Shown: piece after piece, positions 5,776-9,228 of the stretch | Layout: each line of letters opens with the position of its first letter | How positions within the stretch are numbered: position 1 is the stretch's first letter | Virus record (IMG/VR): IMGVR_UViG_3300006163_000012 | Coordinates: 1 to 30,141 of that record | Length of the DNA: 30,141 nucleotides | DNA from: a virus | Direction: 5' to 3' (one strand) | Notes under the pieces: generated by a model | The model's input: only the letters and a program-made list of their open reading frames with translations | Told to the model about the DNA's origin: nothing | The model's database searches: none | Position numbers and translations under genes: made by a program

Positions 5776-5803
5776 GAGAGTCCTAACACGGATTCTCTTT
5801 TTT
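5776..5803 (+). terminator. Intrinsic terminator, GAGAGTCC/GGATTCTC type
   Basis: Stem GAGAGTCC (5776-5783) / GGATTCTC (5790-5797) with one G-U pair, loop TAACAC, then six T. The same stem recurs at 6218 and 7251. Confidence 0.92.
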
Positions 5804-5841
5804 CATCCTGAAAAAACCCCGGGGGAAAATTTCTGCCCAAG

Positions 5842-5866
5842 TCGCAGTTATTACTTCGCTTATAAT
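5842..5866 (+). promoter_or_regulatory. Cassette promoter 3 (TCGCAG-N13-TATAAT)
   Basis: TCGCAG 5842-5847 and TATAAT 5861-5866, 13 bp apart, followed by GAAACCTATGAAAGG. Confidence 0.85.
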
Positions 5867-5889
5867 GAAACCTATGAAAGGAAGAATTC

Positions 5890-5994
5890 ATGATTTATCT
5901 GAAACTCATTGTGGCCAAAATCCTGCATCCCAGGACTCAGGTTCGCATCAAGAGACTTCGGAATCAAGACGTGATTATGTACCGTCCTAGGTAA
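5890..5994 (+). CDS. Tiny basic protein, 34 aa
   Basis: ATG 5890 follows AAAGGAAG (5877-5884) and promoter 3. The product is MIYLKLIVAKILHPRTQVRI followed by KRLRNQDVIMYRPR: a short amphipathic or hydrophobic N-terminal helix and a strongly basic tail. It could bind membrane or nucleic acid, but nothing identifies a function. It forms its own promoter-gene-terminator cassette, and that context is the main support for its being a real gene. Confidence 0.72.
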   Translation: MIYLKLIVAKILHPRTQVRIKRLRNQDVIMYRPR

Positions 5995-6003
5995 TTCAAG
6001 AAA

Positions 6004-6031
6004 GGGGATCCTACCAGGATTCTCTTTTTTT
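6004..6031 (+). terminator. Intrinsic terminator after the 5890-5994 gene
   Basis: Stem GGGGATCCT (6004-6012) / AGGATTCTC (6016-6024) with G-U pairs, a 3-nt loop and seven T. Confidence 0.9.
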
Positions 6032-6040
6032 CCCTGCAAA

Positions 6041-6065
6041 TCGCAGGATTTACTGGGTCTATAAT
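6041..6065 (+). promoter_or_regulatory. Cassette promoter 4 (TCGCAG-N13-TATAAT)
   Basis: TCGCAG 6041-6046 and TATAAT 6060-6065, 13 bp apart. TGCAAATCGCAGGATTTACT upstream is repeated at promoter 8. Confidence 0.88.
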
Positions 6066-6087
6066 GAAATCTAACAAAGGAGTAATT

Positions 6088-6858: not shown

Positions 6859-6883
6859 TCGCAGGATTTACTAGGCGTATAAT
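6859..6883 (+). promoter_or_regulatory. Cassette promoter 8 (TCGCAG-N13-TATAAT), drives a structured RNA
   Basis: TCGCAG 6859-6864 and TATAAT 6878-6883, 13 bp apart. The downstream GAGAAGG belongs to the RNA-type group rather than the GAAACC mRNA-type group. Confidence 0.88.
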
Positions 6884-7014
6884 GAGAAGGAAGAAGTAAG
6901 ATACGAGAGTTGTCGGAAAAAGGGTGAAAGGGCCCGGTGAGGTGAAAACCAATACGCCAATGCCGACTGCTCTCAGGACAGCTCGTTACTCGTCCTGAGC
7001 CTTCTCTTTTTTTT
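6884..7014 (+). ncRNA. Structured RNA with paired ends, about 120 nt
   Basis: No gene-sized ORF or ribosome binding site is present between promoter 8 and promoter 9. GAGAAGG (6884-6890) pairs with CCTTCTC (7000-7006), followed by eight T, so the closing stem doubles as a terminator. Inside, GAGAGTTGTCGG (6905-6916) pairs with CCGACTGCTCTC (6963-6974) apart from two central mismatches. CTCAGGAC (6972-6979) pairs with GTCCTGAG (6992-6999) around a 12-nt loop; this stem shares three bases with the previous one. The result is a compact multi-helix RNA with a G/A-rich loop near 6917-6950. No known RNA family recognised. Confidence 0.75.
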
Positions 7015-7286: not shown

Positions 7287-7311
7287 TCGCAGGAAAAACA
7301 TGCTCTATAAT
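7287..7311 (+). promoter_or_regulatory. Cassette promoter 10 (TCGCAG-N13-TATAAT), followed at once by a terminator hairpin
   Basis: TCGCAG 7287-7292 and TATAAT 7306-7311, 13 bp apart, with the RNA-type downstream sequence AGAAG. Confidence 0.88.
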
Positions 7312-7359
7312 AGAAGAGGTGAACTATGATCCCAGATGTGGATCGACCTCTTCTTTTTT
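7312..7359 (+). ncRNA. Short hairpin RNA / promoter-proximal terminator with leader ORF
   Basis: AGAAGAGGT (7312-7320) pairs perfectly with ACCTCTTCT (7346-7354), which runs into TTTTTT. An inner stem GATCC (7328-7332) / GGATC (7340-7344) caps it. The 5' arm begins on the base after the -10 box. A leader ORF (ATG 7326, 18 codons, MIPDVDRPLLFSLHRGGL, stop TAG at 7380-7382) sits behind GAGGTG and reads through the terminator. If transcription starts 7 nt after the -10 box, most of the 5' arm is missing from transcripts made here, and only read-through from upstream would form the full terminator. Confidence 0.65.
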
Positions 7360-7371
7360 CTTTGCACAGGG

Positions 7372-7516
7372 GAGGTTTGTAGAGAGATAGTTGAATTGTA
7401 AAGAGGCGACAATAGCGAGAAACGTGGAATACTCGTTACAAATCGTCTGCCTGTCCACGCAGGAACGTGGCGCTGTGGCCAAAGTGCCGCGCTCGAACTA
7501 TCTCTCTACAAGTCTC
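7372..7516 (+). ncRNA. Structured RNA element, family A/B copy 1
   Basis: Lies in the 527-nt gene-free stretch 7239-7765. A 19-bp terminal stem (7372-7390 with 7498-7516, G-U pairs only at the base) encloses three further helices. These are AGGCGA (7404-7409) / TCGTCT (7443-7448), within it AGCGAG (7414-7419) / CTCGTT (7432-7437), and CCACG (7455-7459) / CGTGG (7466-7470). The core ACAAATCGTCTGCC (7438-7451) is identical in the second copy at 9118-9131, where the helices are kept with different bases. No promoter lies directly before it, so it probably comes from read-through past 7359. No known RNA family recognised. Confidence 0.85.
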
Positions 7517-7521
7517 TCTTG

Positions 7522-7606
7522 TGGGCCGTGGATCAAGGTTCGCATCGACGGAGTCCTTGATTTTATCTGAATGTTCAATCGCGTATGCATAGTTCAGAGC
7601 GGCCCA
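7522..7606 (+). ncRNA. Possible three-way-junction RNA
   Basis: TGGGCCG (7522-7528) pairs with CGGCCCA (7600-7606). Inside are two hairpins: ATCAAGG (7532-7538) / CCTTGAT (7555-7561) and CTGAA (7567-7571) / TTCAG (7593-7597). The 85-nt size and 7-bp closing stem recall a tRNA, but the T-arm, anticodon arm and invariant positions are absent. It starts 5 nt after the first A/B element ends. No family recognised. Confidence 0.65.
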
Positions 7607-7615
7607 TATATCTCT

Positions 7616-7722
7616 GCAACCCTAACGGAATAGAAAGGATCGGCTGACTACGATAGTCTAAGAGCTATGAGCGTAGGAGAGTTTCTAGAGACTCGCCAAC
7701 TACCGGATCGCCGTTAGGGTTA
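7616..7722 (+). ncRNA. Structured RNA element upstream of the 7766 gene
   Basis: An 11-bp perfect closing stem, AACCCTAACGG (7618-7628) / CCGTTAGGGTT (7711-7721), encloses two hairpins. One is CTACG (7648-7652) / CGTAG (7672-7676) with inner ATAG/CTAT; the other is GAGTT/GACTC around TCTAGA (about 7679-7694). It ends about 30 nt before the ribosome binding site of the next gene, so it may be a 5' UTR element of that gene or a processed RNA. No tRNA or known riboswitch core is visible. Confidence 0.65.
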
Positions 7723-7765
7723 CAAAGGTATTTTAGTCAATTTAAACAAAATAGAAAGGGTTAGA

Positions 7766-8179
7766 GTGCCTACTATCGAACACAAGGTATCATTTGACAA
7801 GGTATTTGATGGTGTTACCAATCATGTCAAACGGCATAAGGTAGCATATTCTTTTGGCGCTGGAGTTGCAATCGTAGGGATAACTTGTCTTGTGACGAGA
7901 GGTACCAGTCTAGGCATTAGTGAACTTCAAAGTGGACTATCTAATGCCGTTTCCTTTGAAAAGAACGCAACTCTGAACAATGTGTCGTTTATTTTCTCCA
8001 ATCGCCAAGGCCCTCCGAGTTGGGTTGTGCGTTGCCTCGAAACTGGAGAGATTTTTTCATCACAACGTGCTGCAGCAGCGTTTAAAGGAATTAGTGCTAG
8101 CGATCTTTCTACTCATCTTAACGGTATGCATGAAAATGCAAACGGTCTTCATTTTGAACGACTCTTCTTGTCGATTTAA
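7766..8179 (+). CDS. Membrane-anchored protein with NUMOD1-like C-terminal domain
   Basis: GTG 7766 with GAAAGGG 5 nt upstream; 137 residues. A hydrophobic helix (about 27-44, AYSFGAGVAIVGITCLVT) is followed by a polar linker. The C-terminal module (about 90-135: WVVRCLETGEIFSSQRAAAAF, then GISASDLSTHLNG and LHFERL) has the beta-hairpin plus helix-turn-helix pattern of NUMOD1-type DNA-binding domains, usually attached to homing endonucleases. No nuclease domain is present. A membrane anchor with a DNA-binding module is unusual; the helix could instead be buried in a soluble fold. The domain call is from pattern recognition only. Confidence 0.75.
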   Translation: MPTIEHKVSFDKVFDGVTNHVKRHKVAYSFGAGVAIVGITCLVTRGTSLGISELQSGLSNAVSFEKNATLNNVSFIFSNRQGPPSWVVRCLETGEIFSSQRAAAAFKGISASDLSTHLNGMHENANGLHFERLFLSI

Positions 8180-8204
8180 TCGCAGTAAAAACTTCTCCTA
8201 TAAT
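8180..8204 (+). promoter_or_regulatory. Cassette promoter 11 (TCGCAG-N13-TATAAT)
   Basis: TCGCAG 8180-8185 starts on the base after the upstream stop codon; TATAAT 8199-8204, 13 bp apart, followed by AGAAG. Confidence 0.88.
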
Positions 8205-8296
8205 AGAAGATTGTTTGTGAGGCTGTTGCGTTTGCGTAGCCTATGGACCGGAAACTGCAGATACTCTGGTTACCACGCAATCTTCTATTATTTTTT
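8205..8296 (+). ncRNA. Three-way-junction RNA with terminator tail
   Basis: AGAAGATTG (8205-8213) pairs perfectly with CAATCTTCT (8278-8286), followed by ATTATTTTTT. Inside lie AGGCT (8220-8224) / AGCCT (8238-8242) and ACCGG (8247-8251) / CTGGT (8266-8270), giving a three-way junction of about 82 nt. The 5' strand of the closing stem starts immediately after the -10 box of promoter 11. The ribosome binding site of the next gene begins right after the T-run, so the element may act as an attenuator for 8314-8888 or be a free small RNA. Confidence 0.72.
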
Positions 8297-8313
8297 CAAA
8301 AAAGGAGTCAATT

Positions 8314-8649
8314 ATGCGAGGAACTTTGATCAACGCTATTCTGATCTATATTCGCCTTCAACCTGGAGTAAGAGGTTCAGAAATTGTAGCTACTTTTGGG
8401 AACTCACCGAAGACTTCTGTTTCGAACACTATCGGAAAACTCAAGCGTATGGGGTTGATCGAGAATCGGGGTCGAGGTGGTCGTTGGTCTGAATGGTATC
8501 CCGTCGAAGTGGAGCCTGTCGATCCTGAGTTCCTCGAGATCGCCCAGACACTTCTCAAAGATCTAAATAAAATCTTGAAGTCTGAACGTGAAGTTTTTCT
8601 GGCCAAAAGATTGAAAGAGCTATTTCCCTCGATAAAGGAGGAAGTATGA
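8314..8649 (+). CDS. Winged-helix DNA-binding protein
   Basis: ATG 8314 with AAAGGAG upstream; 111 residues. The N-terminal 60 residues read as a winged helix: helix 1 (TLINAILIYIRLQP), helix 2 (GSEIVATFG), recognition helix (TSVSNTIGKLKRMGLIEN) and a Gly/Arg-rich wing (RGRGGRWSEWY). This resembles MarR/ArsR-like transcription regulators. The rest is helical (LEIAQTLLKDLNKILKSERE) and could dimerise. It is the best candidate in this region for a regulator of the repeated promoters, on position only. The stop overlaps the next start (ATGA at 8646). Confidence 0.82.
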   Translation: MRGTLINAILIYIRLQPGVRGSEIVATFGNSPKTSVSNTIGKLKRMGLIENRGRGGRWSEWYPVEVEPVDPEFLEIAQTLLKDLNKILKSEREVFLAKRLKELFPSIKEEV

Positions 8650-8888
8650 AGATCACGTTGGGAAAAGCTACCGGTCTCGATCTGATCAGGACGGACGTAT
8701 ACAGGGGGTTCATCCTGATGATTCGAGGGTGGGAAGTCTCTTACGTGCACTTTCTCGAAGACTACATCGGTATCGCTTGGAACCGTACCTTGATCATCGG
8801 TGAGCGCAAGTGGTGGTTCACCGAATCTTGGAAGTTGTGGGCCAAGAAGACGCCGATTGGTATTAGATATGCACTCAGCAGGAAGTAA
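8646..8888 (+). CDS. Hypothetical protein, 80 aa
   Basis: ATG 8646 is inside an ATGA overlap and is preceded by AAAGGAGGAA (8635-8643), so it is translated from the same message as the winged-helix gene. The product is rich in Trp and aromatics (GWEVSYVHFLEDYIGIAWN, KWWFTESWKLW) and basic at the end; it looks like a small beta-sheet domain. No family recognised. The frame ends 17 nt before a strongly structured RNA region. Confidence 0.82.
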   Translation: MKITLGKATGLDLIRTDVYRGFILMIRGWEVSYVHFLEDYIGIAWNRTLIIGERKWWFTESWKLWAKKTPIGIRYALSRK

Positions 8889-8904
8889 CCTGACTATCAG
8901 TTGG

Positions 8905-9041
8905 GTTACTAAGACACAGGCCCAAATCCTAAACGCAGCGCAAGAGGTTCTAGCCGACTTCTGGTGGCGACAACGGGGCGAAACCGGTTAGGTGCCAAAT
9001 CACCAGGCTAGGGTGACCGCACAAGCCTGTGTCTTAGTAAC
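8905..9041 (+). ncRNA. Structured RNA closed by a perfect 17-bp stem
   Basis: First element of the 340-nt gene-free stretch 8889-9228. GTTACTAAGACACAGGC (8905-8921) is perfectly complementary to GCCTGTGTCTTAGTAAC (9025-9041). Inside, CTAGC (8950-8954) pairs with GCTAG (9007-9011) and, after a bulge, CTGGTG (8961-8966) pairs with CACCAG (9001-9006), leaving a G/C-rich apical region. No T-run follows. There is no nearby promoter, so it would come from the 8180 promoter by read-through or processing. A 17-bp duplex is a potential RNase III substrate. Confidence 0.8.
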
Positions 9042-9050
9042 TTAATTGGA

Positions 9051-9212
9051 GAGGTTTACGGGAGCGGGGACTGTATTTGAGAGACGACAAAGAATGAGAA
9101 GCTGGCGCTCTCATTATACAAATCGTCTGCCCTTCCAGCGGGGAACGCGGCGAGGATAGATAGGTTCCTTTGACTACTAACCATCGCTCCAGTCTCCGTT
9201 CCCGTAAGCCTC
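9051..9212 (+). ncRNA. Structured RNA element, family A/B copy 2
   Basis: A continuous 23-bp terminal stem (9051-9073 with 9190-9212, three G-U pairs) encloses the same architecture as the copy at 7372-7516. AGACGA (9082-9087) pairs with TCGTCT (9123-9128), AATGAGA (9093-9099) with TCTCATT (9109-9115), and CC-GCG with CGC-GG (9135-9150, one bulged A). ACAAATCGTCTGCC (9118-9131) is identical in both. The helices differ in sequence but keep pairing, which argues for selection on RNA structure. The 3' strand ends 3 nt before the AAGGAG of the 9229 gene, so it could also control that gene. Confidence 0.86.
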
Positions 9213-9228
9213 TACAAGGAGTATATTT

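Follow-up and report, generated by a model that had tools for sequence, protein, structure and literature searches.

The small pRNA of phage phi29 has a terminal helix as well as two hairpin loops whose sequences are complementary to each other, and in the purine riboswitch aptamer the hairpins of one junction are docked through loop-loop pairing. RNA C and RNA D of phage T4 (species 1 and 2, of 139 and 119 nt respectively, annotated in L294) are stable RNAs encoded in a phage tRNA cluster. GOLLD and ROOL are structured phage RNAs of unknown function, often found by tRNA islands and forming multimers via kissing loops, and Rfam includes both of them (PMC12286853). Orphan RNAs in the tRNA islands of phages are, as a broader niche, already known.

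The window (the whole 30,141-nt stretch of DNA analysed, a 30-kb virus record, IMGVR_UViG_3300006163_000012) carries two RNA elements, both on the + strand, whose family resembles each of these systems in part. Like GOLLD and ROOL, the family is phage-encoded, has predicted kissing loops and, in a minority of its members, is found near tRNA islands: three phage groups have it within a tRNA array and a fourth has it behind a phage tmRNA; it differs by its size of about 150 nt, many GOLLD RNAs exceeding 800 nt, and by having no convincing copy in GTDB by the pattern used. As in phi29 pRNA, two of its hairpin loops are mutually complementary; what differs is the four-way junction, to which P5 adds a further hairpin, and the conserved internal loop. 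Two groups have it close to portal or neck genes and the others elsewhere. The docking of hairpins from one junction recalls the purine riboswitch aptamer, from which the family departs by the four-way junction, by other conserved bases and by varied downstream genes. An Rfam match is lacking in all three comparisons. T4 RNA C and RNA D were rejected as members, no model match being obtained even with the filters off and the predicted folds being different. Our preferred reading, with a probability of about 0.6, is that the elements encode a stand-alone phage non-coding RNA of ~145–165 nt, folded as a kiss-locked four-way junction, transcribed from a promoter, released or terminated at P1 and acting in trans on a conserved partner.

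Architecture of the two elements

Both copies have a long closing stem P1, followed by P2, P3, P4 and P5, as follows.

7365–7523, + strand: copy 1, whole (P1 to P1'); inverted repeat, fold, match of model R1 at 7395–7468 with 69.5 bits
7365–7392, + strand: copy 1, 5' arm of P1, partner of 7496–7523; inverted repeat, compensatory change in orthologue L124
7404–7409, + strand: copy 1, 5' strand of P2 (AGGCGA), then CAA at 7410–7412; sequence, P2 covariation
7414–7437, + strand: copy 1, hairpin P3 (AGCGAG/CTCGTT), kissing sequence CGTGGA at 7423–7428; sequence, fold, loop comparison
7438–7448, + strand: copy 1, conserved ACAAA and 3' strand of P2 (TCGTCT); sequence, loop and cluster comparison
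7450–7463, + strand: copy 1, hairpin P4 (CCTG/CAGG), kissing sequence TCCACG at 7454–7459; sequence, fold, loop comparison
7466–7491, + strand: copy 1, hairpin P5 (CGTGGCGCT/AGTGCCGCG); fold
7496–7523, + strand: copy 1, 3' arm of P1; inverted repeat
9050–9213, + strand: copy 2, whole (P1 to P1'); sequence, fold, match of model R1 at 9073–9148 with 67.2 bits
9050–9073, + strand: copy 2, 5' arm of P1, 24 nt, partner of 9190–9213; fold, permutation analysis
9082–9087, + strand: copy 2, 5' strand of P2 (AGACGA), then CAA at 9088–9090; sequence, homologue comparison
9093–9115, + strand: copy 2, hairpin P3 (AATGAGA/TCTCATT), kissing sequence GCTGG at 9101–9105; sequence, fold, loop comparison
9118–9128, + strand: copy 2, conserved ACAAA and 3' strand of P2 (TCGTCT); sequence, cluster comparison
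9130–9143, + strand: copy 2, hairpin P4 (CCCT/GGGG), kissing sequence CCAGC at 9135–9139; sequence, fold, loop comparison
9149–9188, + strand: copy 2, hairpin P5, approximate boundaries; fold
9190–9213, + strand: copy 2, 3' arm of P1, 24 nt; fold, permutation analysis

An earlier note on this DNA had placed two elements here with a shared 14-base core; both are present on the + strand with slightly longer stems, and the window holds the core ACAAATCGTCTGCC only two times, once in each copy. The note had listed P1, P2 and P3, all of which are found, and had missed hairpins P4 and P5 and the kiss between P3 and P4. The P1 arms of copy 1 measure 28 nt with a complementarity of 86%. P2 is a 6-bp helix (NNNCGA/UCGNNN), formed by AGGCGA in copy 1 or AGACGA in copy 2 with UCGUCU, and encloses a CAA(A)-[hairpin P3]-ACAAA internal loop below P3. 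P3 and the terminal stem P1 change on both sides between the copies, as the note had claimed, whereas the P2 difference that it also took for compensatory is one-sided, a G.U pair becoming A-U. Compared with dinucleotide shuffles, the folding of copy 1 gives a z of -6.5; the value of -1.8 for the stretch 9051–9200 of copy 2 is weak because that stretch cuts P1, and the whole copy 2 element folds at -77 kcal/mol.

A family of covarying RNAs

A covariance model of 11 sequences (R1) was seeded with a pattern-found relative, with tail-protein and polymerase relatives and with two-helix pattern matches. The search for further homologues envisaged in the earlier note returned many: R1 together with two wider patterns gave 63 matches in IMG/VR contigs with E under 0.01, which represent about 45 distinct members. 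L255, the sole GTDB match reaching E 0.009, overlaps a 378-aa ORF and was rejected as chance, and L204 was left out for the same kind of overlap although a model R2 gives it 27.5 bits. The bare 14-mer ACAAATCGTCTGCC was discarded as a search tag, its matches in viral contigs being mostly chance.

Outside IMG/VR, one pattern run on the GTDB species genomes gave 20 matches and no convincing copy, this pattern being one that would miss members ending in AACGYGG. A blastn comparison with 50,697 named phages returned no credible relative, the queries being the region, individual members and a 3.4-kb concatenation whose L219 member had its end completed with a relative's sequence. Nor did the covariance model find a credible match in 19 named phages, T4, ReqiPepy6, HTVC008M, P-SSM2 and Gordonia phages among them; part of these scans used strict filters and had no internal positive control, and the same model yields matches elsewhere. 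The expectation that no known family would match held: Rfam 15 (4227 models) gave no match in the window and, in nine homologue loci, nothing where the elements lie, at the curated gathering thresholds, and nothing at the elements at relaxed thresholds. The motif description was not found in the literature searched, a body that excludes subscription papers and most preprints. We regard the elements as new as an RNA family, the novelty lying in the family and not in the mechanism.

In an alignment of 44 members, the structure is paired in 88.8% of cells against 63.4% after shuffling, double changes number 166 against 53.8, and both-sided changes are present in all three helices. The covariation score of 0.641 is to be compared with 0.188 for shuffled alignments and 0.06–0.12 for slid structures; it was reached by none of 500 shuffles and all slid structures were lower too, and the separation is very large for controls that leave some relatedness and an alignment that is fitted to the model. 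P1, P2, P3 and P4 each gave 0 of 20,000 permutations, and P1 is not evident in the marine T4-like members. Between the window and its orthologue L124 (94% identical), two changes are compensatory, GATAGTT/AACTATC to GATAGCT/AGCTATC in P1 and GCGAG/CTCGT to GCGGG/CCCGT in P3. The occurrence of G.U pairs at several alignment positions fits an RNA of the + strand better than a DNA cruciform. The selection on RNA structure that the earlier note had put forward is thus borne out, and the alignments point clearly to an RNA family under selection. Among the unpaired bases, CAA is constant and ACAAA is found in 33 of the 34 clusters, partly because the search patterns require them; P5 comes next as AAAGCGG or AACGYGG and differs greatly among members. 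The most conserved unpaired bases are identical across phages of 35–64% GC.

In both copies the loops of P3 and P4 are complementary (CGUGGA/UCCACG in copy 1, GCUGG/CCAGC in copy 2), and the homologues keep this pairing in other letters (CUGCCA/UGGCAG, CUGACA/UGUCAG, CUACCA/UGGUAG, CACAAC/GUUGUG, UCGUGGGA/UCCCACGA and others). Over 34 clusters at 80% similarity, the mean complementarity of a member's own loops is 5.42 compared with 3.86 for swapped loops, a level reached in none of 100,000 permutations, and it is at least 5 in 25 clusters. The covariation of the predicted P3-P4 kissing loop across the family is supported by these values. Six members (L222, L217, L226, L037, L152 and L165) have a short P3 or are without a clear kissing loop; in L197 and L233, which scored weak, hand inspection outside the permutation test suggests that six loop pairs could form with one bulged base. 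Two copies in one genome can differ in their loop pair, with CGUGGA and GCUGG in the window and CUGCAA and CGUGGA in L130.

The main rival explanation, which we consider unlikely, is that the P3 loop of one molecule pairs with the P4 loop of another, thereby building an RNA-only oligomer, a ring or cage like those of phi29 pRNA or the GOLLD/ROOL nanocages. The covariation of two complementary hairpin loops and the different loop pairs carried by the two copies of one genome would agree with such an assembly, as would the precedent of GOLLD and ROOL, phage RNAs near tRNA islands that multimerise via kissing loops and other contacts (PMC12286853). Intramolecular and intermolecular pairing, however, look alike in sequence, and P3 sits next to P4 in the junction, an arrangement in which an intramolecular kiss is geometrically plausible.

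Carrier phages and genomic neighbourhood

The carriers are very different phages: relatives of the actinophage-like siphovirus of the window, marine T4-like phages with baseplate-wedge, gp13, gp14 and gp15 genes, a group with a podovirus-type portal gene, tRNA-rich phages and further carriers of 35–64% GC with other replication genes. Most of them have one copy and some have two. The tail genes of the window include a Dit-type and a ReqiPepy6 Gp37-like one, and its primase-polymerase has its nearest named relatives in Gordonia and Rhodococcus phages (~60% identity), so that the host is likely to be actinobacterial. Element presence and module order vary among close relatives.

The members that lie by tRNA or tmRNA genes are placed as follows.

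L198: element occupies all the space from tRNA-Leu to tRNA-Arg
L199/L279: element after tRNA-Leu
L217/L287: element between tRNA-Pro and tRNA-Ala
L201 and L203/L277: element ~150 nt after the phage tmRNA

A tRNA or tmRNA lies no more than 2 kb from 7 of 47 members, compared with 2 of 118 control positions, a count in which the L201 distance used ARAGORN's second, overlapping and probably spurious tmRNA call; within 200 nt there are only members and no control positions. Most members are not adjacent to tRNA genes. For the phages concerned, at least, the tRNA-array and tmRNA positions favour a free-standing RNA gene over an mRNA leader. The tmRNA genes of L201 (8107–8491) and L277 (1721–2105) have an identical tag peptide, L228 also carries a tmRNA (5777–6076), and L217 (contig IMGVR_UViG_3300037307_000569) has 28 tRNA genes in 14 kb of phage contig. 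Downstream of the member in L037 (~1410–1510) and just past the element in L152, a common structured stretch, CTCAGGTGGGTT...GGAAGTCATA, is possibly another unlisted RNA.

The earlier note had put forward a packaging RNA, an RNase III substrate and a riboregulator of the downstream genes as candidates, and a cis-acting leader or spacer with a role in the stability, processing or control of the phage mRNA that follows it would be the general form of the last. Copy 2 lies between two small ORFs and ends 15 nt before the start codon of the next one (9229), and the marine T4-like members are part of the leader that precedes the gp13 neck gene; these are points against the stand-alone reading, and a cis role is possible there. 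In L142, 15 bp of possible pairing over the gp13 ribosome-binding site go in the same direction, but this pairing is not evident in the relatives of L142, and a translation switch formed from its P1 was rejected as not conserved; P1 of copies 1 and 2 is clear of the start region and seemingly too stable for a switch. Neighbour genes differ among the phages, and the combination expected of a cis riboswitch or leader, a constant position before one gene class together with an expression platform, was not observed among the members. Because members occur in tRNA arrays or after a tmRNA, and because phages and neighbour genes differ, cis-control of the downstream gene is disfavoured and the cis-acting element as a whole appears quite unlikely.

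The element near the portal gene in L193 and those upstream of the neck genes in the marine T4-like group, together with two complementary hairpin loops as in pRNA, could also suggest a packaging or virion-assembly RNA working with the portal or neck. We hold this to be very improbable: head genes are not nearby in the window, in the tRNA-array phages or in the tmRNA group, and the element is absent from several polymerase relatives, many of whose records are fragments.

Proposed mode of action and surroundings of the copies

For the stand-alone RNA preferred here, we infer transcription, processing, stability, action in trans and a partner as follows: (i) the RNA would be transcribed from phage promoters; (ii) it would be freed from longer transcripts by an RNase III-like cleavage at the long P1 duplex or, in members where a U-run follows P1, end there by termination; (iii) it would fold as a four-way junction (P1, P2/P3, P4, P5) locked by the P3-P4 loop kiss; (iv) the conserved unpaired or junction bases (AG before P2, CAA(A), ACAAA and AAAGCGG or AACGYGG) would form a rigid platform binding a conserved partner; and (v) the folded RNA would act in trans, the partner being most plausibly a part of the host translation or tRNA apparatus or a host defence factor. 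Such a conserved target is favoured by the tRNA/tmRNA company and the breadth across phages. Action in trans could instead be that of a base-pairing regulatory RNA whose seed would be in one of the variable loops, for instance in P5, which is indeed highly variable among members, pairing being common among small phage RNAs. The P3 and P4 loops would be occupied by the kiss, and, since the most conserved unpaired bases are identical from 35 to 64% GC, they suit contact with a protein or the ribosome better than with mRNA targets; this alternative seems most unlikely.

A further-reaching idea, which is doubtful and advanced as tentative, is that the family constitutes a class of small phage RNA machine not known before, a 'tRNA-island'-like gene of unrelated lytic phages, kiss-locked as a monomer or homo-oligomer and disabling or rewiring host translation or a tRNA-targeting defence. 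To the few function-orphan phage RNAs of tRNA islands, the family adds a widespread RNA with a tertiary contact supported by covariation, and, being small, strongly conserved and predicted to kiss, it lends itself directly to tests by probing, pull-down and cryo-EM. Should it target translation or defence, it would rank as a rare case of a phage takeover factor made of RNA.

Upstream of copy 1 lies one unit of a promoter-like repeat.

7287–7311, + strand: phage promoter-like repeat, ~50 nt upstream of copy 1; repeat count

This repeat, TCGCAGRAWWWACNNGSNNTATAAT, has 11 near-identical + strand copies between 5842 and 12627 of the window, 0.01 being expected by chance, and a short hairpin with a U-run lies at 7310–7363 between it and copy 1. 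Directly after copy 1, two long-stem structures (7524–7606 and 7612–7731) are not found in L124 and are reordered in L125, which suggests that such modules may be shuffled, movable RNA cassettes. Directly before copy 2, the stretch 8895–9044 forms a multi-hairpin structure with a 20-bp stem (z -4.5) that is conserved in L130; its assignment as a third family member was not supported. Some of the TCGCAGRAWWWACNNGSNNTATAAT repeats precede small ORFs or structured intergenic stretches, and three units (6859–7010, 7287–7363 and 8180–8296), each with the promoter repeat, a hairpin-closed RNA and a U-run, look like complete small-RNA genes.
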